A stretch of 64,000 nt of DNA from the NCBI RefSeq assembly GCF_003841465.1, contig NZ_REFZ01000003.1, positions 310,001 through 374,000 on the forward strand. Direction: 5' to 3'. Numbering within the stretch: the first letter of the stretch is position 1; each line of letters starts with the position of its first letter. Source of the DNA: Natrarchaeobius oligotrophus. Its GTDB lineage: Archaea; Halobacteriota; Halobacteria; Halobacteriales; Natrialbaceae. The notes under the pieces were generated by a model. The model saw only the letters and a list, made by a program, of their open reading frames with translations. It was not told where the DNA came from and did not search any database. Both the position numbers and the translations under genes were made by a program. Positions 644 to 18,308 of the stretch are shown piece after piece.

Positions 644-1909
644 TTGCAAGGTGACTTGAAATTGCTTGATCGATCACAGAAGATCTACGATGCAGTAGCG
701 TTCCGTGTTCAGGAAACGCGACAGAGTGGGCCTCGCAATGATACGATTGCGGTAACGTTGCGGGAATCGACGTTAGATGCGGATACACTATCACTCGTTC
801 TTTTAGCCGAGAATCATCCCGCAATTACAACAGTATATTTGGTCGTAGAATCTCTCGACCGATTCCATCAGACGCACGAAGAACTCGTGTCTCAATTAGA
901 TTTACTTAATTTGAATATTGAAGCGGTTTCGTATCGGAGTGAATTACTCCAAACAGCGTTAATAGAATCGTGGATAACGTTTATCCGAAACTCGAGAGAT
1001 TTGCTCTATCACCGATTCCTAAACAGTGATCCAAAACGAAACTTCGTACAGATCTATCACGGGCTTGCTAAAGGGAGCGGTAACTTACGGAGAGATTCTC
1101 AGGAAAAACAGCGTGAAAAGAGACTCAATAGCCTCTCCTATCAAAAGCCGTTTTTGTCGAGGATATCCACAGCCGTCGATCTCTATACTGTTTCCACTGA
1201 TATTGAGCGATTCTACCGGTCTGCAGCGGACGGGATACAACCAGCACTTATTCAAAAGTGTGGCTATCCAAAATACGACCGGCTCTACGAACTGATAGAC
1301 TCAGAGGGCGCAAAACCAATCGTCCCGAAAGAAACGCAACGGACACTAGAAGCAGACGATGTTCAATACCGAATTCTATACGCACCGACTCACAGAGGTT
1401 CGTATGGATTGACGAAACTGTTTCCGTTCGATGATTTCGATATCAAAACGCTTCGTGCGGAATTAGCTTCTTGGAACGCCGAACTCTACATACGAACGCA
1501 CATTTCCGAAGAACGGGCTGGAACGTACGATGACGTGGTTGACGGTTCCGTGATCAAGTACGCAGGACACTCGTTCTCACCCTCATCTACCGAAATTCTC
1601 CCATATTTTGACGTGCTCGTAACGGATTATTCGTCGATATATACAGAATACCTCCCACTCGATAGACCAATCATCTTTGTTAAGGATACAGGTACGGACT
1701 ACTTTCGTAGTAAGGGGTTGGCACTCGATTACGGAACATACTTCCCCGGTCCAAAAGTCGATCGTCTTAATGATTTGACCACTGAGTTAGAGTTGAGTCT
1801 CAACGACAACCAGTATTATGCAGATGATCGCGAATTTGTAGCAAAAGCGTTACTTCCTGATCCAGACCAACAGTTCCTTGCAAGCGTTATGCAAAATTTA
1901 TCGCAGTAG
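644..1909 (+). CDS. CDP-glycerol glycerophosphotransferase family protein (paralogue 1)
   Basis: Family members are GT-B-fold enzymes that move glycerol phosphate (or a similar polyol phosphate) from a CDP carrier to a glycan or polymer, as in teichoic-acid synthesis. Visible family blocks are HGLAKGS near residue 139, YAPTHRG near 246 and the EILPYFDVLVTDYSSIYTEY block near 316-335. At 421 residues it is close to the bare catalytic domain, with no obvious membrane helix. The start is TTG: an in-frame stop at 620-622 leaves no ATG, and TTG at 656 or 662 are alternatives. A TATA-like AAGTATTTTC lies at 602-611. The protein is clearly paralogous to that of 8768-10018, matching through the DTLSLV, FGYPRYDR/CGYPKYDR, LYAPTH and VTDYSSIY blocks. 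The gene is AT-richer than DNA after 3.2 kb. The acceptor and CDP-donor are not knowable from sequence. Confidence 0.8.
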   Translation: MQGDLKLLDRSQKIYDAVAFRVQETRQSGPRNDTIAVTLRESTLDADTLSLVLLAENHPAITTVYLVVESLDRFHQTHEELVSQLDLLNLNIEAVSYRSELLQTALIESWITFIRNSRDLLYHRFLNSDPKRNFVQIYHGLAKGSGNLRRDSQEKQREKRLNSLSYQKPFLSRISTAVDLYTVSTDIERFYRSAADGIQPALIQKCGYPKYDRLYELIDSEGAKPIVPKETQRTLEADDVQYRILYAPTHRGSYGLTKLFPFDDFDIKTLRAELASWNAELYIRTHISEERAGTYDDVVDGSVIKYAGHSFSPSSTEILPYFDVLVTDYSSIYTEYLPLDRPIIFVKDTGTDYFRSKGLALDYGTYFPGPKVDRLNDLTTELELSLNDNQYYADDREFVAKALLPDPDQQFLASVMQNLSQ

Positions 1910-1937: not shown

Positions 1938-3062
1938 TCAGACACGTATCGAGGAAGAATCGAGGTATTTGTCAAAATATCTTCTCGCAGTTTTCTCTAG
2001 TGTGTACTCACTCGTGACGAGGGATTTTGCTTCTCGAGCTATGTGATTTCGATAATCGTCGTTCTTCACAAGTGATACTATTTTTTCACTGCAATGTTCT
2101 GGATTATCGACCTCGTGAAAGGACGCAACATCCTCGAACGGGCTTCGAAATTCCGGGATATCAGAGAAGACGCACGCGTTCTCTACTGCGAGTGCCTCGA
2201 GTGCGGCGACGCAGAACCCCTCCCATCGAGACGGCATCGCGTAGATGTCGATCTCGTCCATCATCTTGTATACCTGTCGCCGTTCCTCGAGGAATCCCAG
2301 TAAGTGGAGACGAGAGCTGTGTTTAGCAAGAGAAATCTGTCGCTCGAGTTCGGAACGGAGCGGACCATCGCCCGAAATGACGAGTTCGATCGGTCGATCG
2401 TAGTTCGCGTTCGCTCGGTCGACGGCGTCGATCAACACGTCGTGAGCCTTCTGTTCGGTGAGCATTCCGGCCGACCCGACGACAATTGCGTCGGGATGGA
2501 TGTCTGCAACGTCGTGGATACTCCAGTCAGTTTCGCGGGCACTTTCGAGCCGCTCGAGGTCCACGCCGTTTTCAACCACGGATACGGACGAGTTCGAGAC
2601 GAGACGATTTTCCCACCACGCGAAAGAGTCTCGAACGGATTCAGAAACGCAAGCGACCTCGTCGGCCAGCGCATTTGTGAGTCCGTTCGCGATTCGACCT
2701 TTTCGCGTAAAGCCGCCGTGGTTGTTGTGCTCCGTTACCACGATCGGTTTGCCGAGCCGGTTAGCGATGAGCTTCGCGTAAAATCCCGAGTGATTGTGAT
2801 GAGTGTGGACGATGTCGTACTCTTCTAGCACGGACCTCGCCTCACGATACTGTGTAGGAGTAACTCGATAGGAACTATCGGAAACGTCGAGGTTGTGAAT
2901 CTCAATCGAGTCCATGTTTCGAAACGGTTCGACGCCTTTCCAGGCGAGAATGCCGACGGTTTCAATTTCGTCGAGCGTCGCCTGCGTCGTCGCAAGATCG
3001 CCTGGCATGCTGGTGTCCCGAACGACGTTCACGACGTGACACACGCTAATCTCTCCGGCCAT
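1938..3062 (-). CDS. Glycosyltransferase family 4
   Basis: This 374-residue GT-B glycosyltransferase should transfer a sugar from a nucleotide donor to a glycan acceptor in the cytoplasm. The N-terminal acceptor half holds VHTHHNHSGFYAKL and VVTEHNNHGGF. The C-terminal donor half has VVGSAGMLTEQKAHDVLIDA, LVISGDGPLRSELE, LHLLGF and the EGFCVAALEALA block that carries the E-x7-E donor-binding pair of GT4 enzymes. The ATG at 3060-3062 is preceded on this strand by a TATA-like TTTGTATAGG about 20-27 nt upstream, which fits a leaderless start. It converges on the glycerophosphotransferase at 644-1909 with a 28-nt gap and diverges from the kinase gene at 3216. Sugar specificity cannot be read. Confidence 0.88.
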   Translation of the reverse strand: MAGEISVCHVVNVVRDTSMPGDLATTQATLDEIETVGILAWKGVEPFRNMDSIEIHNLDVSDSSYRVTPTQYREARSVLEEYDIVHTHHNHSGFYAKLIANRLGKPIVVTEHNNHGGFTRKGRIANGLTNALADEVACVSESVRDSFAWWENRLVSNSSVSVVENGVDLERLESARETDWSIHDVADIHPDAIVVGSAGMLTEQKAHDVLIDAVDRANANYDRPIELVISGDGPLRSELERQISLAKHSSRLHLLGFLEERRQVYKMMDEIDIYAMPSRWEGFCVAALEALAVENACVFSDIPEFRSPFEDVASFHEVDNPEHCSEKIVSLVKNDDYRNHIAREAKSLVTSEYTLEKTARRYFDKYLDSSSIRV

Positions 3063-3215: not shown

Positions 3216-6200
3216 ATGCAGCCTCCAGTTGTCGTTATTCTCGGTGCCGGCCAACCCTTCTCCGGCACCGACCCCGCCGCGCTCACGCGAACGTCCGGCG
3301 ACAGGCGCGCTCTCGACTGGCTCCTCGAGAGCTTCCAGCACGAACTCGAGGAACCCGAGATCCACTTCGTCGGCGGGTATCGGATCGACGAGGTGATCGA
3401 ACAGTATCCCGACATTCACTTCTCGCGAAACGAAGACTGGGAGGAGTCCGGCACCGTCGGCTCGCTGCTGTCGGCGCCGCTGCCCGACGAGCGGGAGCTG
3501 TACGTCTGTTACGCCGACACCGTCTTCCAGGCGGACGTCGTCGAGTCCCTCCGCGAGGACGCGGGGGACGCCACCGTCGCCGTCGACACCGAGTGGCGGA
3601 CTCGATACACCGACCGCGACGAGGAGAGCCTCGAGCGCGCCGAGAAAGTGCGACTCGAGGGCGGCGAAATCGCGGCGATTAGCACGGAGGTGCCGCTCGC
3701 GGAGACCGACGCGGAGTTCACGGGCCTGTTGCGTCTCTCGCCCGACTGCATCGAGCGGCTGCTCGAGCTGGCGAGCGCGGGCGTGGTCGACGAGACGGAC
3801 GACCTGCCGTCGCTCGTCAGACTGCTCAACGTCGACGTGGACGTCGCTCCGGTCGACGTACGCGGCAACTGGGCCGAACTCGAGACCGCGGACGACCTGG
3901 CGCGGTTCGTCCTGGATACGAAGGCGAACACGCTTCGGCGACTGGAGTCGGTCGTCGAGCGCAGCGTCATCGAGGATCAGTACACGTTCACCGCGGGCGA
4001 GTGGGAAGCGGACCCGGACGCCGTCCTCGGGGGGGTTCGGGCGACGTTCGACGACGACGTCATCGTTCGCAGCAGCGCGCTCGCGGAGGACACCTGGGAC
4101 GAGTCGAACGCCGGCAGGTTCGAGAGCGTCCTCGACGTTCCGGTCGACGATCCGACCGCGCTCGAGGGGGCGATCCAGCAGGTCGTCGACTCGTATCCGA
4201 ACGGAAACCCGGACGATCAGGTCCTCGTCCAGCCGATGCTGACCGACGTCGACCACAGCGGCGTCGTGATGACCCGGTCGGTCGAGACGGGCAGTCCGTA
4301 CTACGTGATCAACTACGACGCGGCCACCGGGAGCACCGAGTCGGTCACCGACGGCAGCGGCGAGGCCATCCGAACCGCCATCGTCCGCAAAGCACAGCTC
4401 GATGGGGCGACCGACGTCGAGGACGTCGTCACCAGCCACGCCCAGGCGCCGGCGGGCATCTCGCTCGAGGACGTCCTCGCCGCCGTCCGCGAACTCGAGG
4501 ACGTGATCGGACACGACAGCCTCGACGTCGAGTTCGCCACCACGGCCGACGGGACGGTCCACGTGCTGCAGGTCAGGCCGATGGCGCTCGACCCCGCCGA
4601 CGAAACGGTGGACGACGGGGCGATCGCCGAAACCGTCGACGAGGCCCGACGACGCTTCCACGAGGCGCAGGCTCCATCGCCGTTCGTCCTCGGCGAGCGG
4701 ACGATTTTCGGCGTGATGCCCGACTGGAATCCGGCGGAGATCATCGGTCGCAAGCCGAAGCTGCTCGCCGACTCGCTGTACCGGTATCTCGTCATGGACG
4801 AAGTCTGGGCCCGCCAGCGCGCCGAGTACGGCTACCGCGACGTGCGACCGCAGCCGCTGATGCGAAGCTTCGCGGGCCAGCCGTACGTCGACGTCCGGGC
4901 CGTGTTCAACTCGTTCGTTCCCGCCTCGGTTCCGGACGAACTCGCCGAGCGACTCGTTTCGTACTCCCTCGACCGCCTCGAGGCGAACCCCGAACTCCAC
5001 GACAAGGTCGAGTTCGAGATCGCGATCACGTGTCTCACGTTCGACTTCGAGACCCGGGCCGAGCCGATGCTCGAGGCCGGCTTCACGCTGGACGAACTCG
5101 AGCCGCTCCGGGAAGGATTGAAAGGGATCACCCACACCGCGTTCGACCGCGTCGACGACGACTACGAGCGGGTGGATCGACTCGAGGAGCGGTACGCCGA
5201 GATCGACGGGAGCGAGCTCCCGCCGCTTCGGAAGGCGCGAGCGCTCCTCGAGGACTGTCGGCGGTTCGGTACGCTCCCGTTCGCCCACCTCGCCCGGTCC
5301 GGATTCGTCGCCGTCTCGCTTTTGCGCTCGCTCGAGCGAAAGGGGGTCCTCGAGAGCGAAGACGTCGCCCGGTTTCTCAACTCGCTCAACACGGTCGCAC
5401 GGGAGTTCGAACGCGACGGCCACCGCGTCGCGGCCGGCGAGCTGGCGTGGGAGGCGTTCGTCGAGCGCTACGGCCACCTCCGGCCGGGAACCTACGAGAT
5501 CACGTCGCCGGCCTACGCGAACGATCCGGAGACGTACCTCCGGCCGGTGGCCGAGTCGGCAGAGAAACCTCCGTCCCACCCGGATCCCGGTGACGCGTGG
5601 GACGAGGGGACGCGAGCCGCGATCGAAGACGAACTCGAAACGATCGGGTTGCCGGCCGACTGCGATCGGTTCGTCGAGTTCCTCACGAGCGCCATCGAGG
5701 GACGGGAGTACGCGAAGTTCGTCTTCTCGCGGAACCTGAGCGAGGCGATCGAACAGCTCGCGGCGTTCGGCGAGCGCCACGGCCTCGACAGGGAACAGCT
5801 CTCGCACGTTCCGCTCGAGGACCTCTTCGAACTGTCCGCGAACCACCCGCCGGGCGAAATCGGAGCGTGGCTCGCGAACCGGGCTCGAGAGGGACGGCGT
5901 CGTCACGTCGTCGCCCAGTCGGTCGAGCTTCCGCCGCTGTTGCTCGACGACGCCGATTTCGACGTGTTCGAGCGACCCGCCCGCGAGGCGAACTTCGTCA
6001 CGGACCGGACGATCAGGGCGGAGGTCGTGGAAATCGAGACGATCGACGAGACGACGACGGACCTCGACGATCGGATCGTGCTCATCCCGCAGGCCGATCC
6101 CGGATACGACTGGCTGTTCGGCCACGACATCGCGGGGCTCGTCACGATGTACGGCGGGGCGAACTCCCACATGGCCATTCGCGCCGCCGAGTTCGACCTC

Positions 6201-6299
6201 CCGGCCGCCATCGGCGTCGGCGAAAACCGGTACGAACAGCTGCGCGCGGCCGACGTCCTCGAGCTCGATTGCTCCGGACGGACGATCCGGGAGCGCTAA
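3216..6299 (+). CDS. Dikinase-type ATP-dependent phosphotransferase fused to a cytidylyltransferase-like domain (candidate glutamine kinase)
   Basis: This 1,027-residue protein has three parts. Residues 1-235 form a nucleotidyltransferase-like domain. Its YADTVF (100-105), VAVDTEWRTRY and GNWAELETADDL (217-228) blocks align with those of the enzyme at 7081-7842, but the P-loop-like GEGTRLRP and the following PK are replaced (LGAGQPFSG), so this copy is probably non-catalytic. Residues 240-470 are the ATP-grasp of PEP synthase/pyruvate dikinases (IVRSSALAED at 283-292, SNAGRFESVL at 297-306). A long helical middle region leads to the swivelling phosphohistidine domain with GGANSHMAIRAAEFDLPA and His985. 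There is no PEP-synthase C-terminal TIM barrel. That architecture, with the two genes downstream, is the one known for Campylobacter Cj1418, which phosphorylates the amide N of L-glutamine. Glutamine as substrate is inference. ATG 3216 was chosen from the TATA box at 3180-3190. Confidence 0.8.
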   Translation: MQPPVVVILGAGQPFSGTDPAALTRTSGDRRALDWLLESFQHELEEPEIHFVGGYRIDEVIEQYPDIHFSRNEDWEESGTVGSLLSAPLPDERELYVCYADTVFQADVVESLREDAGDATVAVDTEWRTRYTDRDEESLERAEKVRLEGGEIAAISTEVPLAETDAEFTGLLRLSPDCIERLLELASAGVVDETDDLPSLVRLLNVDVDVAPVDVRGNWAELETADDLARFVLDTKANTLRRLESVVERSVIEDQYTFTAGEWEADPDAVLGGVRATFDDDVIVRSSALAEDTWDESNAGRFESVLDVPVDDPTALEGAIQQVVDSYPNGNPDDQVLVQPMLTDVDHSGVVMTRSVETGSPYYVINYDAATGSTESVTDGSGEAIRTAIVRKAQLDGATDVEDVVTSHAQAPAGISLEDVLAAVRELEDVIGHDSLDVEFATTADGTVHVLQVRPMALDPADETVDDGAIAETVDEARRRFHEAQAPSPFVLGERTIFGVMPDWNPAEIIGRKPKLLADSLYRYLVMDEVWARQRAEYGYRDVRPQPLMRSFAGQPYVDVRAVFNSFVPASVPDELAERLVSYSLDRLEANPELHDKVEFEIAITCLTFDFETRAEPMLEAGFTLDELEPLREGLKGITHTAFDRVDDDYERVDRLEERYAEIDGSELPPLRKARALLEDCRRFGTLPFAHLARSGFVAVSLLRSLERKGVLESEDVARFLNSLNTVAREFERDGHRVAAGELAWEAFVERYGHLRPGTYEITSPAYANDPETYLRPVAESAEKPPSHPDPGDAWDEGTRAAIEDELETIGLPADCDRFVEFLTSAIEGREYAKFVFSRNLSEAIEQLAAFGERHGLDREQLSHVPLEDLFELSANHPPGEIGAWLANRAREGRRRHVVAQSVELPPLLLDDADFDVFERPAREANFVTDRTIRAEVVEIETIDETTTDLDDRIVLIPQADPGYDWLFGHDIAGLVTMYGGANSHMAIRAAEFDLPAAIGVGENRYEQLRAADVLELDCSGRTIRER

Positions 6300-6439
6300 C
6301 GACGTCTCGGTCGACGGCCGGCCGAACGCGTGTCGGCGATGCTCCCCGACCGTCGAACGACCGCCGACGACTTCGCCCCGGATACCGAACCGGAGGATCT
6401 TTCGCTGTATTCAATTGAGTGGAGCGCCAACTCCCGTCG

Positions 6440-7081
6440 ATGGGACGTCTCGGCATCACCCAACGCGTCGAGGTCGTCGAGGAGTACGACGAGCGACGCG
6501 ACTGTCTCGATCAGCGCTGGGCCGAACTCGTCGAATCGATGGGACACGTTCCGATCCCGTTGGCGAACCTGGTCGACGATCCGGCCGACTACCTCGAGGC
6601 GCTCGCGGTCGACGGCCTCGTCCTCACCGGCGGCAACGATCTGCGTCACCTCGCGGACGCCGAGAACGTCGCCCCGGAGCGCGACGAGTTCGAGGCAGCC
6701 GCCCTCGAGTACGCGCTCGACGAGGAACTCCCCGTCCTCGCCGTCTGTCGCGGGATTCAACTTCTGAACGTCCACTTCGGCGGATCGCTCGGTCGGGTCG
6801 AGGATCACGTCGCTCGCGACCACCGCGTTCGGTTCGAACGCGGCGTCGATTTCGCGCCGGAGGAGCCGATCACGGTCAACAGTTACCACGGCTACGGAAT
6901 CGAGCGCGAGGACGTCGCGGAGCCGCTCGAGACGATCGCCGTCGCCGAGGACGGATCGATCGAGGGTCTCGCCGTGCCGGACCGGCCGATCGTCGGCGTG
7001 ATGTGGCACCCCGAACGCGACTCGCCGGCGGCCGCGGTGGATCGCCAGCTTTTCGAGCGTCTGTTCGGTGGTCGGTACTGA
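6440..7081 (+). CDS. Class-I glutamine amidotransferase / peptidase C26-type hydrolase (candidate gamma-glutamyl-CDP-amidate hydrolase)
   Basis: A 213-residue stand-alone GATase1. The nucleophile is Cys103 in VLAVCRGIQLLN, and the partner His190 and Glu192 are in VMWHPERD, so the triad is intact. The N-terminus GITQRVEVVEEYDERRDCLD, the VLTGGNDL turn (61-68) and NSYHGYGIE (147-155) recall the Cj1417 / gamma-glutamyl hydrolase branch rather than synthase subunits such as HisH. In Campylobacter that enzyme cuts glutamate from gamma-glutamyl-CDP-amidate to leave cytidine diphosphoramidate. The ATG at 6440 was preferred to GTG 6419 because the family starts just before GITQR. Its stop overlaps the next ATG by 1 nt (TGATG at 7079-7083), so translation is probably coupled. 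It lies 140 nt after the kinase gene. A PuuD-like hydrolase is the alternative. Confidence 0.82.
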   Translation: MGRLGITQRVEVVEEYDERRDCLDQRWAELVESMGHVPIPLANLVDDPADYLEALAVDGLVLTGGNDLRHLADAENVAPERDEFEAAALEYALDEELPVLAVCRGIQLLNVHFGGSLGRVEDHVARDHRVRFERGVDFAPEEPITVNSYHGYGIEREDVAEPLETIAVAEDGSIEGLAVPDRPIVGVMWHPERDSPAAAVDRQLFERLFGGRY

Positions 7082-7842
7082 TGAAAGCCGTTCACCTCGC
7101 CGCCGGGGAAGGAACCCGGCTGCGACCGATCACGGAGGATCTCCCGAAACCGCTCGTCGAGCTTGGCGGCCGGTCGCTGCTCGAACGAAACGTCGACACG
7201 CTCGAAGCGGCGGGCGTCGACGAACAGGTCGTCGTCACCGGCCACTGCGCCGACGAGATTCGAGACCGCGGCTACGAAACGGTGCACAACCCGGTCTACG
7301 ACGAGACCGACATGATCTACAGCCTGTTCTGTGCCGCCGACGCGTTTCCCGAGGACGACGACCTCGTCATCTCGTACGGCGACATCGTCTACGAGGAGGC
7401 GGTCGTCGACGCGCTGCTCGAGTGCGACGCGCCGCTGTGCGTGGTCGTCGACCGCGAGTGGCGGCGGCTCTGGGAGCTTCGGTTCGACGATCCGCTCGAC
7501 GACGCGGAGACGCTCTCGATGGACGACGACGGCCGAATCCACGAGATCGGCGGCGACACCGACGACTACGACGAGATCGACGCCCAGTACACCGGCCTGC
7601 TGAAGGTGCGCGCGGATCACGTCGACGAACTCGTCGAGGAGTACCGGTCGCTCGAGGCGGGTGCGGACGGCTACGTCTCGATCGACACGACGGCGTTTTT
7701 ACAGCGGTTGATCGACGGCGGCTGGAACGTTGAAGGGGTTCCCGTGGACGGGAAGTGGCTCGAGGTTGACTCGACCCAGGACCTCGAGACCTACCGCGAA
7801 CTGTACCGGTCGGGAGAGCTGTCGGAGATTCTGTCGCTGTAG
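7081..7842 (+). CDS. Nucleotidyltransferase, LicC/phosphoglutamine cytidylyltransferase type
   Basis: A 253-residue GT-A-fold nucleotidyltransferase. Catalytic signatures are complete: LAAGEGTRLRP (6-16), Lys23 in LPKPLVELGG, the metal Asp101 in VISYGDIVY, then DREWRRLWELRFDDPLDDAE (124-143), DEIDAQYTGLLK (164-175) and a late metal site KWLEVDS (225-231). It should join a phosphorylated small molecule to a nucleotide, most often CMP from CTP. The ISYGDIVY, RFDDPLxDAETL and AQYxGL blocks are those I recall for Campylobacter Cj1416, which makes gamma-glutamyl-CDP-amidate from glutamine phosphate and CTP; phosphocholine cytidylyltransferases (LicC) are the other close group. It overlaps the amidotransferase gene by 1 nt and is paralogous to the N-terminal domain of the protein at 3216-6299. 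Substrate assignment rests on this context. Confidence 0.85.
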   Translation: MKAVHLAAGEGTRLRPITEDLPKPLVELGGRSLLERNVDTLEAAGVDEQVVVTGHCADEIRDRGYETVHNPVYDETDMIYSLFCAADAFPEDDDLVISYGDIVYEEAVVDALLECDAPLCVVVDREWRRLWELRFDDPLDDAETLSMDDDGRIHEIGGDTDDYDEIDAQYTGLLKVRADHVDELVEEYRSLEAGADGYVSIDTTAFLQRLIDGGWNVEGVPVDGKWLEVDSTQDLETYRELYRSGELSEILSL

Positions 7843-7871: not shown

Positions 7872-8612
7872 TCACCGACTCCGATCGTACCGAGAGAGGC
7901 GTCGAGCGTGGATGAGCAGTTCGGGTCCGAAGATCGCGACCGTGTACGCGGCGTAGAGGAGCAACCAGAGGTCGATCGCGCCGAGGACGACGCCGAGAAA
8001 GAGTAGTGGGGCTTTGAAGCTCGATACGACGCCGGCGAGCATTCCGGGGGTGATCTCGAGATCGGTGGACGGCTCTTCGTCGGTCGCCGGCAGCAGCTGC
8101 GTCGTCTTGTACAGGACGAGCCATCGGACGAGGCGGAAGACGACCTCGACGGTGGCGACGCCGAACCAGAGTATTGCACTCACCTCGAGAAAAGCGAACG
8201 CGTCCGTTCTGTAGAGCGCAACGGCGACGACGAACGGGGTCGCCACGTGATAAATCACGCCGACGAACCAGTCCAGAAACGCGCCGAACGCGCTCGAAGT
8301 TTCGTTGTATCTGGCCACGACGCCGTCGACGAAGTCGAGAAGGTACCAGAGGTTGAGCAGTACGGCACCGAAAGCGAGCGCGGTGAACGACGTCCCGGTT
8401 GCGATCGAGACGAGCCCGACACACAGAACGACCGCACCGATCGCGGTAACGTGATTGGCCCCGAGCCCGAATCGAAGGAACAGCGGTGCGACGTAGAACG
8501 AGAGCGGGCGAACGACGAGAAACGCCCAGAAGTGGTTTTGAAAGTCCGACTGACGTTTCTCGTCGGGGTGTTGCCGTTTCAGCTCGCTCGGCGAAACCGA
8601 CGAATCAGACAT
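7872..8612 (-). CDS. CDP-alcohol phosphotransferase family membrane protein with an altered catalytic motif
   Basis: A 246-residue polytopic protein of the CDP-alcohol phosphotransferase fold, which moves a phospho-group from a CDP-linked donor to an alcohol within the membrane. The motif D93-x2-D96-G97-x2-A100-R101 (DFVDGVVAR) is intact, as are G110 and D114. The last Asp of the DxxDGxxAR-x8-GxxxDxxxD signature, usually described as the catalytic base, is Gly118 here (FLDWFVG). Hydrophobic stretches suggest six or so helices. The ATG is at 8610-8612. The gene converges with the cytidylyltransferase (29-nt gap) and lies 155 nt upstream of the second glycerophosphotransferase on the same strand. 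The donor may be the CDP-compound made by the neighbouring enzymes; that is inference. Confidence 0.82.
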   Translation of the reverse strand: MSDSSVSPSELKRQHPDEKRQSDFQNHFWAFLVVRPLSFYVAPLFLRFGLGANHVTAIGAVVLCVGLVSIATGTSFTALAFGAVLLNLWYLLDFVDGVVARYNETSSAFGAFLDWFVGVIYHVATPFVVAVALYRTDAFAFLEVSAILWFGVATVEVVFRLVRWLVLYKTTQLLPATDEEPSTDLEITPGMLAGVVSSFKAPLLFLGVVLGAIDLWLLLYAAYTVAIFGPELLIHARRLSRYDRSR

Positions 8613-8767: not shown

Positions 8768-10018
8768 TCAACGATCCGAGTGAAATTCGTCGAAAACAGC
8801 CTCGAGAAACGTATCGTCTCGCTCGGGCAGAAACGTGTCTCTGACGAACGCTCGTCGATCCTCGTACCTTTCCTCGCCGGCGAGACAGCGCTCGAGGTGA
8901 ACGAAGAAGGCTTCGGAGTCGTCGATCTTCTCCCCGGGGAAGTATCGGTCGTAGTCGAACGCGAGGCCACGGGTTTCGAGAAACGCCTCGTGATCGTCCG
9001 TGAGGAAGACGATGGGACCGTCGAACGGAAGAAAATCGACGTAGATGGAGGAGTAGTCGGTGACGAGCGCATCGAAGTACGGGAGAATTTCGATGGGGGA
9101 CTGGGCGAACGTCGTTCCGGCGTATCGAATCAGTTCGCCGTCGATGTACTCGTCGTAGATACCGTCGTCGTCCTCGAGCGGATGCATTCGCACGTAGAGG
9201 ACCGCGTCGCGTTCGGCCAGAAAGTCCCGAAACCGGTCGACGTCGAACCCGTCGAACGGAAACAGGGTCGTCTCGTACGCGCCGTCCTTGTGCGTCGGTG
9301 CGTAGAGAAACCGATACGATGCACCGTCGTTTTCGAGTTCCTCGCGCGACCGTTCGGGAACGATCGGTGTCGCAGTCCCCGATCGCAACGCGCGGATCCG
9401 ATCGTACCGGGGATATCCAAACGTTCGAAAGAGAGACGGCTTCTTGCCCTCGGCCGTTACCCTGAAGTGTCGCTCGACCTCCGATTCGATCGACTGTGCG
9501 TCGACGCCGACCGCGGAAAGCGACATCAGTCGACTCGGATACGACAGCTCGTTCGAACGTGAGCGACGCTGGCGCTCGAGCTGTTTCGTTCGAAGGTTTC
9601 CGTACGCCTTGGTGATGATTCCGTGATGGATTCTGATAAACGTCCGCGACGGCGTGCGGTTGCACAGCCGGTAGTTCCAGAGGTCGTACCTCGTCGTGAA
9701 GAAGACGAACGAGGAGTCGACCAGCCCTCGAACGAACGCCCTCGAGTGCTCTTCGACGACGGTCACGCTCGCACCTCGTTCCTCCAGGCACGGGACGATA
9801 CGTCGAGACGTCTTCTCGAAGATTTTCGGAGACCGTACGACGAGGTAGATGTCCCAATCGGACAACGAGCGGGAGATCTGTGCCACGAGCGAAAGCGTAT
9901 CCGGCCCAAACGATGAGCCCCTGAGGTAGATCGTCACGGCAGTACCGGGTCGTTCCCGACGCAGATCGGCCGAAAGAAATCGAAGAGGGGCCGTCGTCAG
10001 ATACTCCCGAAATCCCAT
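8768..10018 (-). CDS. CDP-glycerol glycerophosphotransferase family protein (paralogue 2)
   Basis: A 416-residue homologue of the 644-1909 product. Shared blocks include HHGIITKAYGNLR, FGYPRYDR, FLYAPTHKDG, VLYVRMHP and ILPYFDALVTDYSSIY, the family's acceptor/donor signature. Unlike paralogue 1 it has the GC-rich codon use of the surrounding chromosome, so the two copies probably have different histories. I chose the ATG at 10016-10018 because it aligns with the paralogue's start; a GTG at 10078 would add 20 Arg/Ser-rich residues and sits nearer the TATA-like box at 10124-10132. Its role should be transfer of glycerol phosphate or another CDP-activated phospho-group to the glycan assembled by the neighbouring glycosyltransferases. 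The donor is unproven. Confidence 0.82.
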   Translation of the reverse strand: MGFREYLTTAPLRFLSADLRRERPGTAVTIYLRGSSFGPDTLSLVAQISRSLSDWDIYLVVRSPKIFEKTSRRIVPCLEERGASVTVVEEHSRAFVRGLVDSSFVFFTTRYDLWNYRLCNRTPSRTFIRIHHGIITKAYGNLRTKQLERQRRSRSNELSYPSRLMSLSAVGVDAQSIESEVERHFRVTAEGKKPSLFRTFGYPRYDRIRALRSGTATPIVPERSREELENDGASYRFLYAPTHKDGAYETTLFPFDGFDVDRFRDFLAERDAVLYVRMHPLEDDDGIYDEYIDGELIRYAGTTFAQSPIEILPYFDALVTDYSSIYVDFLPFDGPIVFLTDDHEAFLETRGLAFDYDRYFPGEKIDDSEAFFVHLERCLAGEERYEDRRAFVRDTFLPERDDTFLEAVFDEFHSDR

Positions 10019-10123
10019 ACGAAACGAAAGATCGCTAGAGGAGCATAGTCGTTGCCGTCTACGACGAACGAGCGACACCGACGATACACGGATCTCGAGG
10101 CCGTCGAAATATCACATGGCAGA

Positions 10124-10199: not shown

Positions 10200-11345
10200 A
10201 TGGCGCTGTTGATCACTCTCGCGGCGGTCTTACTCGCAGTTACGGCTCTGCCGTACGTATGCTATCTCGTTCTGTACGCGATCGTCGCGCCGTCGGGTTC
10301 GCCGGCGGCGAAGGAATCGATCGAGCCGACGGTCAGCGTCGTTCTGCCGACGTACAACGAGTCCGGCATCGTCGAGCGAAAGCTCGAGAACCTGCAGACG
10401 GTCGACTACCCCGCGGAGAAGATGGAGCTGGTCGTCGTCGACTCGAGCGACGACGAGACGCCGGCGCTCGTCCGGGAGTACGCCGAGACGCACGACGAGT
10501 TCCCGGCGCTCACGATCATCGAAGAAGAGGAGCGTCGCGGGCTCGCGCCGGCGCTCAACGACGCCTACGAGGCGGCCGAGGGCGAGATCGTCGTCAAGAC
10601 CGACTGCGACTCCATGCTCGACGAACGAACCGTTCGGGAGGCGATCGCGAACTTCGCGGACGAAGACGTCGACGCCGTCACCGGCCAGAACGTCGAGATT
10701 CCGGGCGGAAGCGACGTCGAGTCGAGCTATCGCGGCGTGCAGTCGCACATTCAGAGCCTCGAGTCCCACCTCGATTCGACGCTCATCTTCCACGGGCCGT
10801 TCTCCGCGTTTCGCAACGAGTCGATCGTGGCGCTCGATCCGAACTCGCTCGCCGACGACACCGAGCTCGCCCTGAAGATCCGGCGCAGCGGCGGTCGGGT
10901 GATCTTCGATCCGGCGGCCCACTACAAGGAGGCGGCTCACTCGAGTTTCCGGAAGCGGCGCACCCAGAAGGATCGACGGGCGATGGGACTGATTCGTCTG
11001 CTCGTGCAGCACCGGGACGCGCTCTTTCGGTACGGACGGTACGGACGGATCGTGCTTCCGTTCAACTGGTGGTTCATGATCGCATCGCCGTGGCTGTTGC
11101 TCGCGAGCGTGCTCGCGGTTACCGCGGCGGCCGTCTCGGTGGCCGGGATCGCGGGCGCGAGCGTGCTCGTCCCGCTTCTGGCGTTCGTGTGGCTCGGCCA
11201 GGCGGATCGGCTGGGGCCGATACAGCCGGTGTACGCGATCTTCGACACGCAGGTGTCGCTGCTGCGAGCGAGCGTCGAACTCGTCCGGGGAGAGAGCGAC
11301 GGGACGTGGGAGGTCGACGCCGAACTGCGAGAGGCGTACGAGTAA
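10200..11345 (+). CDS. Membrane-anchored glycosyltransferase family 2
   Basis: A 381-residue processive-type GT2. Residues 1-30 form a membrane helix, followed by the GT-A catalytic domain: SVVLPTYNESGIVERKLENL, ELVVVDSSDDETPALV, the metal-binding KTDCDSMLDER, an acceptor segment FHGPFSAFRNESI and LADDTELALKIRRSGGRVIF. Two more hydrophobic segments lie near the C-terminus (about residues 290-345), so the catalytic domain faces the cytoplasm. Such enzymes extend a lipid-linked glycan or make a polysaccharide. The ATG at 10200 was preferred to the out-of-frame ATG at 10193. The gene sits in the glycan locus between a glycerophosphotransferase and a TnpB element, upstream of aglB. Confidence 0.88.
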   Translation: MALLITLAAVLLAVTALPYVCYLVLYAIVAPSGSPAAKESIEPTVSVVLPTYNESGIVERKLENLQTVDYPAEKMELVVVDSSDDETPALVREYAETHDEFPALTIIEEEERRGLAPALNDAYEAAEGEIVVKTDCDSMLDERTVREAIANFADEDVDAVTGQNVEIPGGSDVESSYRGVQSHIQSLESHLDSTLIFHGPFSAFRNESIVALDPNSLADDTELALKIRRSGGRVIFDPAAHYKEAAHSSFRKRRTQKDRRAMGLIRLLVQHRDALFRYGRYGRIVLPFNWWFMIASPWLLLASVLAVTAAAVSVAGIAGASVLVPLLAFVWLGQADRLGPIQPVYAIFDTQVSLLRASVELVRGESDGTWEVDAELREAYE

Positions 11346-11422: not shown

Positions 11423-12667
11423 TCAGCCGCCAGCAATAGGCTGGTGACTCTCGCCGTTCAACGCCCCACCATTCACACGCACGTCTACTGGTGCGTCTCC
11501 GCTCCCCGACGTGGGCGAGGAGCGGAGTCTGTGTTTCCGTTTTCGAGCATACCGTAGTCCGATATTCTTCGCTGCATTGTAGTCCGCGTTCACCTCGTAG
11601 CCGCATTTCTGGCACTCGAAGTGTTCTCCGTGGCGGTTGTTCTCATGCGTGAACTCACAGTCTGTCCGAGAACAGCGTTGGGACGTGTGGTTCGGCTCGA
11701 CTTGCTCCACGGAGACGCCCTGTTCGGGCGCTTTGTACTCGACGTACTCGACAAGGCGTCGGAACGCCCAGATGTGGTGCCACTTCGCCTGTGGAAGCCG
11801 CTCGCGGATGTCCGTTAGGTCCTCGAACGCGATCACGTCGCAGTCGTGTTCGACGGCTTCCGAAACGATCTCGTTGGCGACGATGTGGATGTACTGTTTC
11901 CGCCACGCTTCTTCGCGTTTTCCGAGGCGAAGGAGCGCGTTGTGCGCGGCTTGTGTCCCGCGCTGTTGCATCTCACCACGTCGCGTCTCGAACTCGCGGC
12001 ACCAGTGATCGTATTCGTCGCCCTGCCAGAACGTGCCGGTCGAAGCTACTGCGAGGCTGTTAAGGCCGAGGTCGATACCGAGGACTGTTTGGTGCCCGGT
12101 ATCTGCCGAAACCTCGGACTCGTCGTCATCGGACTTCCGCGTTGTGATGTGGAAGTGGAACTCGTCGGTTGCCTTGTCGTATTGGAGTGTACTCGCCCGG
12201 AACTCGTAGTCCTTCGAGAGAACGTACTGTTCGTAGGGCGTCGGGCTGTCCGCTGGGAGTTCAAAATCACACTCAACATGCCCGTTGACAGTTGAGAGCG
12301 AGACGTTGTTCCGGTAGAAGGTCGCACTCCGCTTGTCGTAAAGCATACTCCACGACGTGAACTCCGGTTGGCTCACACGTTTGCCCTGTTTCCACCGTTC
12401 GACGCACCCTTTCGTCGCTTGGACGGCGCGTCGGATGGCTTCTTGAACGAGGTTCGCGGTGAGGTCGGTTTCCTCTCGTAGTTCCTCGTAGAGCGCGTCC
12501 CGCGCGGTCGTGTTCGCCGTAACGCAGTTCGTGTAGGAGTCGTCGTCCCAACAGAACTCGGCGGCACGGTTCGCGCAGTGAAGAAACTGTCGCGCGGATT
12601 CGTGGAGGTCGTCGCGGCGCTCATCGGGCACGACGAGTTTGACCGGCGCGGTTCGACGCACCACCAT
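11423..12667 (-). CDS. tnpB: TnpB (RNA-guided nuclease, IS1341-type OrfB)
   Basis: A 414-residue TnpB with an N-terminal HTH/OrfB region, RuvC-like nuclease and zinc ribbon. The three RuvC acidic residues are present: D199 in GIDLGLNSLAV, E282 in AFEDL and D362 in NADYNAAKNIG. Zinc-ribbon cysteines are C332, C337, C352 and C355. The reading frame is full length for haloarchaeal members, so nuclease activity may be retained. TnpB proteins use a guide RNA made from the 3' end of their own gene and cut DNA next to a short target motif; haloarchaeal tnpB genes are also known to give sense-overlapping 3' transcripts. The ATG at 12665-12667 is leaderless relative to the TATA box at 12691-12700. Without tnpA in the window, movement would need help in trans. 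Confidence 0.93.
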   Translation of the reverse strand: MVVRRTAPVKLVVPDERRDDLHESARQFLHCANRAAEFCWDDDSYTNCVTANTTARDALYEELREETDLTANLVQEAIRRAVQATKGCVERWKQGKRVSQPEFTSWSMLYDKRSATFYRNNVSLSTVNGHVECDFELPADSPTPYEQYVLSKDYEFRASTLQYDKATDEFHFHITTRKSDDDESEVSADTGHQTVLGIDLGLNSLAVASTGTFWQGDEYDHWCREFETRRGEMQQRGTQAAHNALLRLGKREEAWRKQYIHIVANEIVSEAVEHDCDVIAFEDLTDIRERLPQAKWHHIWAFRRLVEYVEYKAPEQGVSVEQVEPNHTSQRCSRTDCEFTHENNRHGEHFECQKCGYEVNADYNAAKNIGLRYARKRKHRLRSSPTSGSGDAPVDVRVNGGALNGESHQPIAGG

Positions 12668-12922: not shown

Positions 12923-14074
12923 TCAGTTCGCTCGCGCGGAGACCGACTCGAGAATCCGTTCGTACCTGGCGACCGCCGCGTCGAAGGTGAACTCTCGCTG
13001 GATGAGCGCTCGACAGTTCCGACTCATCTCCGACAGCGAGTCGTCGTCCAGCAGGTTCGCGAGTTCCGTCGCGATTTCGTCCGGATCTCGAGTCCGCATC
13101 AGCGCGCCGGTTTCGCCCTCGCGGACGACGTCGGGAACGCCCGAAACCGGCGTCGCGTAGACCGGCGTTCCGCACGCGAACGACTCGAGGATGGTCGTCG
13201 GGAGCCCCTCCGTGGGATGCGACGGGAGGACGAGGAGGCGCATCCGGGAGAGTTCGTGCGGGACGCGGTCGTGGTCCACCCAGCCCTCGATTTCGACCCG
13301 GCCGTCTCGTACCTCGTCGGCTACCTCCGCCGAAAGCCAGTCCGACAGCGCGCCACCGCCGACGAACCGGAACGTCACGTCGGACGGCAGCCGCGTCGCG
13401 ACGGCAGCCAGCGTCCGAACGCCTTTCTCTTCGTCCATCCGTCCGAGGTAGCCGACGACGGCGTCGCGATCGTCGTACGCCACGCGAGGTCCGAACTCGT
13501 CCGCGTCGATGAACCGGGCACCGTTGGGATACAGCTTGTGCTCGTAGCCTTCGAGTCCGAGTTCGGTCGCCATCGCGGGCGTGTACGTGACGATCGCGTT
13601 CGACAGTCGGTAGCCGATCCGCTCGAGCAGCCAGACGCAGCCGGCGAGAGCCCTCGCGACGATCAATGGAACGCGACGTTCCCACCGAATGCGAAGCGCC
13701 AGCGGGACGTTGGCTCGAGGCTCGACGATCACCGTCTTTCCGGAGAGGCGAGCGACCAGAATCGGGAGGACGTACGCGACGGGTCCGAAAAAGAGGACGA
13801 TCTCTTCGTCGCGTCGTCGAACGGCGCGACTCATCCGAAGCTGCATGAAGAGAAAGTAGATCGCGGCGATCGGGATACTGTCAGGGAAGTCGCGATCGCT
13901 CAGTTCGGTCACGTCGTACGCCGCTCGCAACCCCGCGTCGGAGAGCGCGATCGTTACTAGCGAAACACTCGTTATCTCGGACAAAATCTCGAGAAGTTCG
14001 CCGGTTGCCGTCGGATCGGCCTCGCCCAGCGGCTGGGTGACGACGCAGATGTCTTCGTCCATCGATTCCAGCAT
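12923..14074 (-). CDS. Glycosyltransferase family 4
   Basis: A 383-residue GT-B glycosyltransferase. The N-terminal half contains the hydrophobic IPIAAIYFLFMQLRMSRAVRR and VLFFGPVAYVLPILVARLSG segments, suggesting membrane association. The C-terminal donor domain has VVGYLGRMDEEKGVRTLAAV, FRFVGGGALSDWL, LLVLPSHPTEGLPTTILESF (the family E-x7-E region) and GTPVYATPVSGVPDVV. It would add a sugar to a lipid-linked or capsule glycan on the cytoplasmic side. The ATG is at 14072-14074; an internal Met at residue 5 is an alternative. It is divergent from aglB, with 252 nt between the starts. This context supports a role in the N-glycan assembled for AglB, though the sugar is unknown. Confidence 0.87.
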   Translation of the reverse strand: MLESMDEDICVVTQPLGEADPTATGELLEILSEITSVSLVTIALSDAGLRAAYDVTELSDRDFPDSIPIAAIYFLFMQLRMSRAVRRRDEEIVLFFGPVAYVLPILVARLSGKTVIVEPRANVPLALRIRWERRVPLIVARALAGCVWLLERIGYRLSNAIVTYTPAMATELGLEGYEHKLYPNGARFIDADEFGPRVAYDDRDAVVGYLGRMDEEKGVRTLAAVATRLPSDVTFRFVGGGALSDWLSAEVADEVRDGRVEIEGWVDHDRVPHELSRMRLLVLPSHPTEGLPTTILESFACGTPVYATPVSGVPDVVREGETGALMRTRDPDEIATELANLLDDDSLSEMSRNCRALIQREFTFDAAVARYERILESVSARAN

Positions 14075-14326: not shown

Positions 14327-17299
14327 ATGAGTACAGACACCGAACGCGTCGACGGGGAAACCGAGACGTCCCCCTCGTTCCTCTCGACGTGGGAAGAGTG
14401 GTATCACGTCCCCGTTATCGGGGTCGTGATGCTGTTTATGTTCTGGGTGCGGACCCAGTCGTACGATCGGTTCGGCATGGAAGACGGCGTGCCCTCGCTG
14501 GCGGCCGTCGACTCGTGGTACCACTGGCGGACGGTCCAGTGGACGGCGGAGAACTATCCGCGGACGATGCCGTACGAAATCTGGACGGGGTTTCCGACCG
14601 GAGAGTACGTCGGGCAGTTCGGCACGCTGTTCGACCAGATCATCGTGACGATCGCGATGATCGTCGGGCTCGGCGATCCGTCGCCCGAGACGCTCTACAC
14701 CGTCTCCCTCCTCGCAGTGCCGGCGATGGCCGCGCTCGTCGCCATTCCGGTGTTCTACATGGGTCGACGCCTCGGCAGGACGATCGGCGGAATCGCCTCC
14801 GTCATCCTGCTCGCGCTCGCGCCCGGCCAGTTCCTCTCGCGGACGGTCACCGGACAGCTCCAGCACCACGTCGCCGAAGTGCTGTTCATGGCGATCGCCG
14901 TGCTGGCGATGATGGTCGCGCTCCGCGTCGCCGAGCGCGAACGTCCCATCTACGAGCTGGTCGCTGACGGCGACTGGGACGCCCTTCGAACGCCGACGAT
15001 CTACAGCGCGCTTGCAGGCATCGCACTCTCGCTCTACGTCTGGGTCTGGCCGGCGGGCGTCGTTCTGATCGGCATCTTCGGCGTCTTCTTCGCCGTGCAG
15101 CTCTGTCTCGACTACGTTCGCGGCGTTTCGCCGGACCACGTCGCGTTCGTCGGCGCGGTCAGTTTCGGTATCACCGCAGTCGCGACCCTCCTGTTGATGG
15201 AACGGCCCGAGTTCGGCAGTCCGTCGAACTTCGGACTGCTCCAGCCCGCGACCGCGGCGCTCGTCGCGGTAGGCTGTGTCTTCATGGCCTGGCTCGCCCG
15301 CCAGTGGGACGGCCGCGAGATCGACCGACAGTACTACCCGGCCGCGATCGGCGGTTTGATCGTCGCCGCGTTCGGGGTCATGTGGCTCGTGCTCCCGGAC
15401 CTCTACAGCACGCTGATCGGCAACCTCACCGGCCGGCTGTTGCCGATCGATCCGAGCGCCACGACGCTCACCATCCAGGAGGCCCAGCCGCCGGCGGACT
15501 TCACCGCACACGTCTTCAACGAGTTCGGCGCGGCCTTCTACACGATGCTCGTGGGGCTCGGACTGCTGATCGCGCGACCGTTCCTCGGGCGCGAGTACCG
15601 CACCGAGTACACGCTCGTGATCGTCTGGTCGCTGTTCCTGACGAGCATGGCCGCGACCCAGGTCCGATTCTCGTACTATCTGCTGCTCGCCGTCGCGGTC
15701 GTCAACGCGGTCGTCGTCGCGGAGACGCTGCGGTTCCTCGACTTCGACGCCTCCGTCACGGACGGGATCGACTCGCTCAGGGGGGTCGAAGCCTACCAGG
15801 TGATCGTCCTCGTGATGGTCGTCCTGTTGCTGTTCGCGCCGCTGCTGCCGCCGGTCGCCGCGGCTGGAACGACCGCGTGGGACCGCGGCGGAGCCGCACA
15901 ACCGCACCACTCCTCGACCGCGTGGGAGCCGTCGAACCAGTGGCTCGCCGAGAACACGCCCGAGCCCGGCGACTGGGGCGGGGCTGACAACGCGAGCGAA
16001 CTCGACTATTACGGCACCTACGACTACCCGGAAGACGGGGACTTCGATTATCCCGTCGGCTCGTACGGCGTGCTCTCGTGGTGGGACTACGGCCACCTGA
16101 TAACGGTCCAGGGCGAGCGGATTCCCCACTCGAACCCGTTCCAGCAGAACGCGCGCTCGTCGTCGGCGTTCCTGACCGCCGACTCCGAGGAGCGATCGGA
16201 GCTCATCCTCGACGCCATCGCCGCGGGCGAGTCGCCCAGAGATCACACGAACGAACAGCTCGAGGCGATGATCGCGGAGAACGAGGACGCCCACGAGGAG
16301 ATCCGGTACGTCATGATCGACCACGAGATGGCCGGCGGCAAGTTCGCGGCGATCACCCAGTGGACGGGGCCGGAGTACGCCCACTACACGACGCCCGAGG
16401 ACTTCGAGCCGGGCGAGCAGATCGACCGCGACGAGGTGGCAGAACGGTTCGCGCACGTGCCGTACGACGACACGACGCTGTCGCGGCTGTACTTCGACGA
16501 CGCGGCCGGGATGGAGAACTACCGGCTGGTTCACGAAAACGACGAGGATATGGCCGGGTTCGTCAGTTACGCCATCGTCGACGCCGACACGGACCGGGTC
16601 CTGCTCGACGAGAACGGCGAGCCCGAGGTGTTCGTCAACCGGATGGTCACCCCGCAGGTCCAACAGGAGCTGGCGTTGTTGCAACAGCACCCGCAGTACG
16701 AACACGTCGACGTCGAGATCTTCGACCAGCGAGAGGGTCCCGCGGTCAAGACCTACGAGCGCGTCGAGGGCGCGACGATCACCGGCTCGGCGGACGTCTC
16801 GGACCACGAGGAGGCGACCGTGACCGCCGTCGTCGAGCTCGAGTCGGGAGCCGACCGCGGCACGTTCGACTACGTCCAGGAGGCCGAACTCGACGAGAGC
16901 GGCGAGTTCGAGCTGACGGTGCCGTACGCGACGAACGACGAACTCGGCGTCGAGGACGGCTACACGAACAGCGCCGTCGAGGCGACCGAGGAGTACACCG
17001 TCACCGTCACCGCACCCGCCGCCGACGACGACGGCTTCGAGGTGTACGAGGGCGAGACGGCCGTCCCCGAGACCGCCGTTGTCGCGGGCGAGAACGTCGA
17101 CGTCACCCTCGAGGAGGTCGCCTTCGAGGACAGCGAGGCGGCCGACGACGAGGAAGAAGGCGAAACCGACGACGCGAACGAAACCGACGACGGGACGGAC
17201 GGTGAGGCCGTGGATCCGATCGGCGATCAGGACGCGACCGGTGAGAACGGAGAGGACGAGGCCGCGGCCGGTTCGGTCGCCGCCGAGGCGGCGGGCTAG
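14327..17299 (+). CDS. aglB: Oligosaccharyltransferase AglB (STT3 family)
   Basis: The 990-residue AglB is the membrane enzyme that transfers a lipid-linked glycan to Asn in Asn-X-Ser/Thr sequons on exported proteins such as the S-layer glycoprotein. The N-terminal half (about 30-510) is a series of hydrophobic helices with the first external loop AAVDSWYHWRTVQW carrying the metal-site Asp. The hallmark WWDYG is at 585-589 (SWWDYGHLI). The C-terminal half is soluble and extracellular and ends in an Asp/Glu-rich tail (about 930-990), typical of a halophile. The start ATG at 14327 fits the TATA box at 14293-14303. Flanking glycosyltransferases at 10200 and 12923 probably build its donor. Length and motif agree with haloarchaeal AglB. 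Confidence 0.97.
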   Translation: MSTDTERVDGETETSPSFLSTWEEWYHVPVIGVVMLFMFWVRTQSYDRFGMEDGVPSLAAVDSWYHWRTVQWTAENYPRTMPYEIWTGFPTGEYVGQFGTLFDQIIVTIAMIVGLGDPSPETLYTVSLLAVPAMAALVAIPVFYMGRRLGRTIGGIASVILLALAPGQFLSRTVTGQLQHHVAEVLFMAIAVLAMMVALRVAERERPIYELVADGDWDALRTPTIYSALAGIALSLYVWVWPAGVVLIGIFGVFFAVQLCLDYVRGVSPDHVAFVGAVSFGITAVATLLLMERPEFGSPSNFGLLQPATAALVAVGCVFMAWLARQWDGREIDRQYYPAAIGGLIVAAFGVMWLVLPDLYSTLIGNLTGRLLPIDPSATTLTIQEAQPPADFTAHVFNEFGAAFYTMLVGLGLLIARPFLGREYRTEYTLVIVWSLFLTSMAATQVRFSYYLLLAVAVVNAVVVAETLRFLDFDASVTDGIDSLRGVEAYQVIVLVMVVLLLFAPLLPPVAAAGTTAWDRGGAAQPHHSSTAWEPSNQWLAENTPEPGDWGGADNASELDYYGTYDYPEDGDFDYPVGSYGVLSWWDYGHLITVQGERIPHSNPFQQNARSSSAFLTADSEERSELILDAIAAGESPRDHTNEQLEAMIAENEDAHEEIRYVMIDHEMAGGKFAAITQWTGPEYAHYTTPEDFEPGEQIDRDEVAERFAHVPYDDTTLSRLYFDDAAGMENYRLVHENDEDMAGFVSYAIVDADTDRVLLDENGEPEVFVNRMVTPQVQQELALLQQHPQYEHVDVEIFDQREGPAVKTYERVEGATITGSADVSDHEEATVTAVVELESGADRGTFDYVQEAELDESGEFELTVPYATNDELGVEDGYTNSAVEATEEYTVTVTAPAADDDGFEVYEGETAVPETAVVAGENVDVTLEEVAFEDSEAADDEEEGETDDANETDDGTDGEAVDPIGDQDATGENGEDEAAAGSVAAEAAG

Positions 17300-17433
17300 C
17301 GGCCGCGCCCGGACGGCCGCACCCTCGAGTCGCCGCCTTTCGATCCGTCGCGTCCGATTCCGGTCGCCGCGTTCGCGACGTTCCGACGACCGAAGCACAT
17401 ACGTGAGTCTCTCACCGACGTAAAGTCGCGCAG

Positions 17434-17778: not shown

Positions 17779-17813
17779 CGGGGAACGGTCGAACGACGGG
17801 CGGCCGACGTCCG

Positions 17814-18215: not shown

Positions 18216-18308
18216 GGGAACGATTTCTACGCGTTTTTCAAAAAGGATATCCCCCGACCGGGACGATCGTTCGGCGAGAGGGGAGCGAACCGACGACTCG
18301 GCCGACGA

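Follow-up and report, generated by a model that had tools for sequence, protein, structure and literature searches.

Homologues of the Campylobacter phosphoramidate enzymes in an AglB glycosylation locus of a haloarchaeon

Could an archaeon decorate its surface sugars with a phosphorus-nitrogen bond? Such bonds are rare in biology and, to our knowledge, the Campylobacter route is the only worked-out pathway for placing one on a glycan. In the synthesis of O-methyl phosphoramidate (MeOPN) by Campylobacter, Cj1418 phosphorylates the amide nitrogen of L-glutamine, Cj1416 couples the product to cytidine triphosphate (CTP) and Cj1417 releases glutamate (PMC11800397, PMC10971088, PMC6429109), the likely donor being a 3'-phosphorylated form of CDP-phosphoramidate (PMC11800397). 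The question is raised by three open reading frames (ORFs) on contig NZ_REFZ01000003.1 of Natrarchaeobius oligotrophus, within a stretch of 64,000 nucleotides that is analysed here as a whole (the window; positions 310,001 to 374,000). An original prediction, made from the letters of this stretch, had read them as a dikinase-type protein, a class-I amidotransferase and a cytidylyltransferase that run the three Campylobacter steps and feed the surrounding glycan genes. The three ORFs, their domains and a 1-nt overlap are all present as described, and family models, a Campylobacterales profile and conserved residues establish their kinship with Cj1418, Cj1417 and Cj1416. Synthesis of CDP-phosphoramidate by this set is well supported and, judged from sequence comparison, very probable. 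The best explanation as a whole, likely but held with less assurance than the synthesis itself, is that cytidine diphosphoramidate (CDP-NH2) would be made and used directly as the donor for an unmethylated phosphoramidate on a surface glycan.

Three homologues of the donor-making enzymes

The kinase combines an ATP-grasp domain (residues 279-459), a central helical domain with a VMPDWNPAE block and a swivelling histidine domain with His985 in the context GGANSHMAIR. Pfam recognises the PPDK_N ATP-grasp and PEP-utilizers swivelling domains and gives no match to the C-terminal barrel of phosphoenolpyruvate (PEP) synthase, which agrees, as does the family alignment, with the dikinase-type architecture first proposed. 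The NCBIfam model NF004508 (PRK05849), whose only name is 'hypothetical protein', matches residues 226-1025 with 908 bits (E = 5e-273, cut-off 501) and is also the top model for the kinase of L126 (1096 bits), one of the reference loci retrieved from Campylobacterales genomes with a match to NF045546. Across 91 aligned kinases, the window protein retains 118 of the 118 columns that are at least 95% conserved, the VMPDWNPAE block and His985 included, at 34-38% identity to the Campylobacterales kinases. Its AlphaFold model has a mean predicted local distance difference test score of 86.7; a single-sequence search of the PDB with the kinase found no match, and a profile search matched only PEP synthase/rifampin phosphotransferase and Enzyme I domains. 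Outside cellular genomes, the kinase patterns had no match in viral contigs, and a 9.5-kb phage clone from human faeces, neither annotated nor verified, carries a homologue of 33% identity (L153, MT837632.1:673-3009).

The top NCBIfam model for the hydrolase is NF045546, that of gamma-glutamyl-CDP-amidate hydrolase (129 bits, E = 2e-37), followed by PuuD with 64 bits, and the hydrolase is the sole match to NF045546 in the genome. The amidotransferase triad that the original prediction had called intact, Cys103/His190/Glu192, is conserved in 88 of 88 relatives, and the protein retains 27 of the 28 columns in which at least 90% of these agree. On the other side of the overlap, the cytidylyltransferase, whose start codon shares 1 nt with the TGA of the hydrolase, scores 201 bits against a profile built from ten Campylobacterales Cj1416-type cytidylyltransferases. 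With the same profile, the domain fused to the kinase reaches 68 bits, other paralogues in the genome at most 48, and proteins of haloarchaea lacking the set at most 51. The signature GxGxR..PK and the metal-binding aspartates are intact (R13, P22-K23, D101 and D230), and of the 37 columns in which at least 90% of relatives agree the protein keeps 35. No specific NCBIfam family model matched this protein; among solved structures, LicC and CTP:inositol-1-P cytidylyltransferase come closest to it.

Public annotation labels the three genes PEP-utilizing enzyme, gamma-glutamyl-GABA hydrolase and phosphocholine cytidylyltransferase, and under that labelling their likeness to the Campylobacter set could be deceptive, the genes being paralogues of PEP synthase, PuuD and phosphocholine cytidylyltransferase that belong to a locus for choline-phosphate-type decoration. 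The family scores and the reciprocal profile search rule out PEP synthase, PuuD and LicC as the closest kin; together with the linkage of the three genes and a kinase without a match to the PEP-synthase barrel, they largely refute this explanation, which is left extremely improbable. Profile comparisons of the kind that the original prediction had proposed back the kinship of the three proteins with Cj1416-Cj1418.

The linkage itself was surveyed by scanning 84,980 species genomes, seeded with the window's own peptides (kinase), which yielded 80 loci. Kinase, hydrolase and cytidylyltransferase stand together in nearly all uncut loci among these, mostly in that order and sometimes rearranged or fused, in at least ten bacterial phyla and also in several archaeal lineages. 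In L126, two proteins in the place of Cj1421/1422 (the one tested is a DUF2972 protein) and two methyltransferases precede kinase, hydrolase and cytidylyltransferase, and an APS-kinase-like gene comes one gene further on, an arrangement which we take to be the cj1422-cj1415 order of C. jejuni. In one haloarchaeon (L106:9405-9776) a C-terminal remnant of the kinase is all that is left, with hydrolase and cytidylyltransferase not nearby, as in a decayed set.

By this kinship, the kinase would transfer phosphate from ATP, by way of a phosphorylated His985, to the amide nitrogen of L-glutamine, the cytidylyltransferase would join cytidine monophosphate (CMP) from CTP to the resulting N-phosphoglutamine, and the Cys-His-Glu hydrolase would release glutamate and leave CDP-NH2. 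A changed substrate, with another amide or amine in place of L-glutamine and a different nucleotide-activated phosphoramidate as product, could be suspected from the modest identity to the Campylobacterales kinases, from the extra domain of the kinase described below and from a hydrolase score under the curated cut-off. The central domain, however, keeps every near-invariant residue, and a glutamyl-releasing hydrolase, which fits a glutamine-derived intermediate, accompanies nearly all kinases, so a changed substrate is quite improbable.

An extra kinase domain and two types of set

The first 225 residues of the kinase, overlooked by the original prediction, form an additional domain of nucleotidyltransferase fold with about 30% identity to the adjacent cytidylyltransferase, and CTP:inositol-1-P cytidylyltransferase (2xme) is among the best PDB matches of the kinase model. 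In the alignment this domain has lost GxGxR..PK and the second of the metal aspartates and conserves the first as well as other positions, so that it probably has no nucleotidyltransferase activity left but is under selection. Kinases bearing it form one clade of the kinase tree (97% by the Shimodaira-Hasegawa-like approximate likelihood ratio test), mostly bacterial, and five haloarchaea make up one group nested inside it (100%), a position that suggests transfer of the haloarchaeal extra-domain set from bacteria. The same five are grouped by the cytidylyltransferase tree, and four of them by the hydrolase tree.

Other fusions were found at the kinase N terminus. Nine acidobacterial loci (L057, L060, L063, L066, L071, L080, L085, L090 and L095) carry a Cj1415-like APS-kinase domain there; the haloarchaeon G288 carries a TagD-like CTP_transf_like domain, with a TagF-like gene nearby (L103:11582-14470); and an alphaproteobacterium (L027) encodes cytidylyltransferase, extra nucleotidyltransferase-like domain and glutamine kinase as a single protein of 1312 residues. 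The kinase of the haloarchaeon G213 (L104) has a different, degenerate nucleotidyltransferase-like domain and is accompanied by a Cj1415-like gene; it stands outside the extra-domain clade and was counted apart from the subtype.

The presence of the extra domain divides the sets into two types. Among loci of at least 12 kb (31 with the domain and 48 without; bacterial absences judged within the fetched flanks), a Cj1415-like kinase lies near 42 of the 48 sets without the domain and none of the 31 with it, linked Cj1419/1420-like methyltransferases accompany 34 of 48 and none of 31, and TagF-like genes follow the opposite trend, with 2 of 48 against 13 of 31; the Fisher p-values (3e-16, 2e-11 and 5e-5, respectively) are non-independent and overstated, the contrasts following mainly one deep split of the tree. 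Six sets have neither the extra domain nor a nearby Cj1415: methyltransferases are present in three, and a TagF-like gene in two of the other three (L050 and L103).

The absence of a Cj1415-like kinase and of a methyltransferase, claimed at first for the window, was borne out, for methyltransferases of the Cj1419/Cj1420 type, and for the APS_kinase domain (PF01583) extends further: not one is encoded anywhere in the genome of N. oligotrophus or in those of five other extra-domain haloarchaea, whereas in G213, and in G790 from a different archaeal group, one directly adjoins the set. A search of the genome with the Cj1415-like protein of L126 found nothing credible. Profiles of Cj1419/Cj1420-type methyltransferases had no match in the window or in the 20 kb upstream, a negative that holds for linked genes, and a single-sequence search of the genome for a Cj1421/Cj1422-type (DUF2972) transferase, which a distant relative could escape, had none. 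Since the subtype lacks the CDP-amidate 3'-kinase and linked methyltransferases, we infer that CDP-NH2 itself would be the donor.

These data bear directly on the alternative that CDP-phosphoramidate is made and then 3'-phosphorylated and O-methylated by unlinked genes, to give ordinary MeOPN. Every genome encodes plenty of generic methyltransferases, the core enzymes are Campylobacter-like, and in some Campylobacter species that carry the three genes no MeOPN has been detected (PMC3907429). Such a completion is nevertheless unlikely given the lack of APS_kinase genes throughout these haloarchaeal genomes, of linked methyltransferases in the 31 loci of the subtype and of a Cj1421-like transferase in the genome searched. 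The archaea of the other group, in L148 (G790) and L149 (G733), encode kinase, hydrolase, cytidylyltransferase and an APS-kinase-like gene near AglB and represent an archaeal case nearer to the classical Campylobacter pathway.

Two further gene families recur around the sets. A formyltransferase-like gene (PF00551; L018:8655-9554 and 19 more loci) is found near methyltransferase-less sets of both types and was rejected as a subtype marker (7 of 31 against 10 of 48). One sulfotransferase-like family (L052:5372-6604, L148:15004-16215 and others) is restricted to loci with an APS-kinase-like gene, as if it acted on a 3'-phosphorylated donor resembling 3'-phosphoadenosine 5'-phosphosulfate; in L148, its member comes after the four-gene set and has kin among the sulfotransferase-like proteins that accompany bacterial sets. 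As a Campylobacter-type partner, sulfotransferase-like genes in general stay a tentative lead, a second family lying opposite the set in Marinobacter.

The glycan locus and candidate transferases

The genes around the set (Table 1) include glycosyltransferases of families 2 and 4 (GT2 and GT4) and the oligosaccharyltransferase AglB, and a flippase and a sulfatase-family protein are encoded upstream of the window. Decoration of an N-glycan is the natural reading of this neighbourhood and is predicted here. Between the GT2 gene and the second GT4 gene, an ORF on the minus strand (11423-12667) looks by eye like an IS200/IS605-type OrfB/TnpB with a zinc ribbon.

Table 1. Features of the three-gene set and its surroundings (positions in the window unless a locus is given)
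Feature	Position	Strand	Evidence or remarks
Putative glutamine kinase ORF	3216-6299	+	ATG start, 1027 residues
Nucleotidyltransferase-like domain, residues 1-225 of the kinase	3216-3890	+	tblastn to bacterial and haloarchaeal relatives; alignment with Cj1416-like enzymes; model match 2xme
Putative L-glutamine kinase part (Cj1418-like)	3891-6299	+	NF004508; near-invariant residues; fold like rifampin phosphotransferase
His985 codon, expected phosphorylated histidine	6168-6170	+	Alignment counterpart of H731 in the L126 kinase (Campylobacterales)
Putative gamma-glutamyl-CDP-amidate hydrolase (Cj1417-like), class-I amidotransferase fold	6440-7081	+	ATG start, 213 residues; alternative GTG at 6419
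Putative N-phospho-L-glutamine cytidylyltransferase (Cj1416-like)	7081-7842	+	253 residues
TagF/Glyphos_transf-family, candidate phosphoramidate transferase	644-1909	+	PF04464, 108 bits; linkage
Second TagF/Glyphos_transf-family, candidate phosphoramidate transferase	8768-10078	-	PF04464, 125 bits; linkage
Third TagF-like gene and sulfatase-family gene	L099:15943-17226 and 17223-18413		PF04464, 130 bits (TagF-like gene); just upstream of the window, directly upstream of 644-1909
CDP-alcohol phosphatidyltransferase-family membrane protein	7872-8612	-	PF01066; weak archaetidylinositol-phosphate synthase similarity
GT4 glycosyltransferase	1938-3062	-	PF00534
GT2 glycosyltransferase	10200-11345	+	PF00535
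GT4 glycosyltransferase	12923-14074	-	PF00534/PF13692
AglB oligosaccharyltransferase	14327-17299	+	STT3, AglB_core-like, AglB_L1

TagF-type enzymes, established in teichoic acid synthesis, transfer the phospho-alcohol part of a CDP-linked donor, leaving CMP. Three TagF-like genes lie by the set, all above the PF04464 gathering cut-off of 22.1 bits. Among 394 haloarchaea, PF04464 occurs in 5 of the 8 with the kinase and in 56 of the 386 without it (p = 0.003), and in all five kinase-bearing species the gene sits no more than about 12 kb from the set. Among bacterial members of the subtype, the cytidylyltransferase is often followed by a diverged TagF version; PF04464 matched ten out of ten of these proteins, the structure model of one of them has TagF as its best PDB match, and the fourth gene by the set on a plasmid of Vibrio alfacsensis is annotated as a member of the CDP-glycerol glycerophosphotransferase family. 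From this linkage we infer a role of the TagF-like protein with CDP-NH2. The same chemistry with this donor would leave an unmethylated phosphoramidate on the acceptor, and the adjacent Glyphos_transf transferase may place the group on a sugar of a surface glycan, the AglB-dependent one or another, with release of CMP.

A use off glycans has also to be considered, in which N-phosphoglutamine or CDP-NH2 would serve as a general activated intermediate, for instance for a lipid head group through the CDP-alcohol phosphatidyltransferase-family protein at 7872-8612, or for a small molecule. The gene for that protein is directly downstream of the set, on the opposite strand; it was, however, dropped as a constant partner when no such gene was found next to the other haloarchaeal sets. 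Glycosyltransferases, flippases or AglB mark several of the set loci as glycan loci, which makes a general activation route rather unlikely.

The explanation that remains preferred, direct use of CDP-NH2 for an unmethylated surface phosphoramidate, has to be weighed against several observations that count against it, in addition to the single tree split behind the subtype contrasts and the restriction of the methyltransferase negative to linked genes. The hydrolase stays below the curated equivalog cut-off of NF045546 (129 against 250 bits), as do hydrolases beside other glutamine kinases in Campylobacterota (189, 185 and 238 bits), and the closest solved fold of the kinase model is that of rifampin phosphotransferase. 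Kinase and hydrolase are separated by 140 nt, and a single transcript for the three genes is a prediction, if a likely one. Moreover, the TagF-like gene is missing in two of the six haloarchaea with the extra domain and was not seen in the fetched flanks of many bacterial extra-domain loci.

Altogether, the original interpretation is supported at the level of sequence comparison, its proposal of a shared pathway holding up to CDP-phosphoramidate and parting from Campylobacter beyond it, where the extra domain, the lack of Cj1415 and methyltransferase genes and the TagF-like neighbours mark another subtype. The pathway would be the first half of the Campylobacter MeOPN route, gained from bacteria by a few haloarchaea in this distinct form. 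More tentatively, and with doubt, a second phosphoramidate branch can be imagined, in which CDP-NH2 with an unphosphorylated 3' position feeds a TagF-like transferase that adds unmethylated phosphoramidate to glycans in mostly marine and halophilic bacteria and, by transfer, to the N-glycans of haloarchaea; the fused domain would then be a cytidylyltransferase that has lost its activity and now serves in binding or channelling.

Relation to known phosphoramidate systems

The donor-making enzymes are extended here to archaeal chromosomes, within an AglB glycosylation locus, and the three genes are widespread in bacteria under annotations that resemble PEP synthase, PuuD and phosphocholine cytidylyltransferase. 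The original prediction knew of no archaeal description; a 2025 paper does predict O-methyl phosphoramidate genes, a CTP:phosphoglutamine cytidylyltransferase among them, on the Cobalt Borg (PMC12660748), and for archaeal chromosomes, as for the extra-domain subtype, no paper was found in a search that was thin on subscription literature. The Borg shares with the present locus the predicted cytidylyltransferase within an archaeal glycoconjugate region. By its description, it differs in being an extrachromosomal element of Methanoperedens for which the prediction is structure-based only, and neither a glutamine kinase nor an extra-domain subtype is mentioned in the main text (PMC12660748).

With the MeOPN pathway of C. 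jejuni, the haloarchaeal set has in common the homologues of Cj1416-Cj1418, their usual order, their catalytic residues and a place in a surface-glycan locus. C. jejuni, however, possesses Cj1415, the Cj1419/1420 methyltransferases and Cj1421-like DUF2972 transferases, whereas TagF-like transferases accompany the haloarchaeal set; and the former set is found in the kps capsule locus, the latter in an archaeal agl locus with an extra domain on its kinase. The subtype thus points to a route that skips 3'-phosphorylation and methylation and may employ a TagF-like transferase, and haloarchaeal surface sugars may carry an unmethylated version of the phosphorus-nitrogen tag of the Campylobacter capsule.

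The likeness to TagF and other CDP-glycerol glycerophosphotransferases (PF04464, 3l7j) is one of family and fold, and of a CDP-linked donor that is used with release of CMP; the donor of TagF is CDP-glycerol, whereas that of the linked transferases would be CDP-NH2. Finally, unmethylated phosphoramidate is found on the lipopolysaccharides of Xanthomonas campestris and Shewanella (PMC3907429, PMC8042644), bacterial systems whose product, a phosphoramidate without O-methyl, is the one proposed here, and the subtype described here is a candidate for how those groups could arise.

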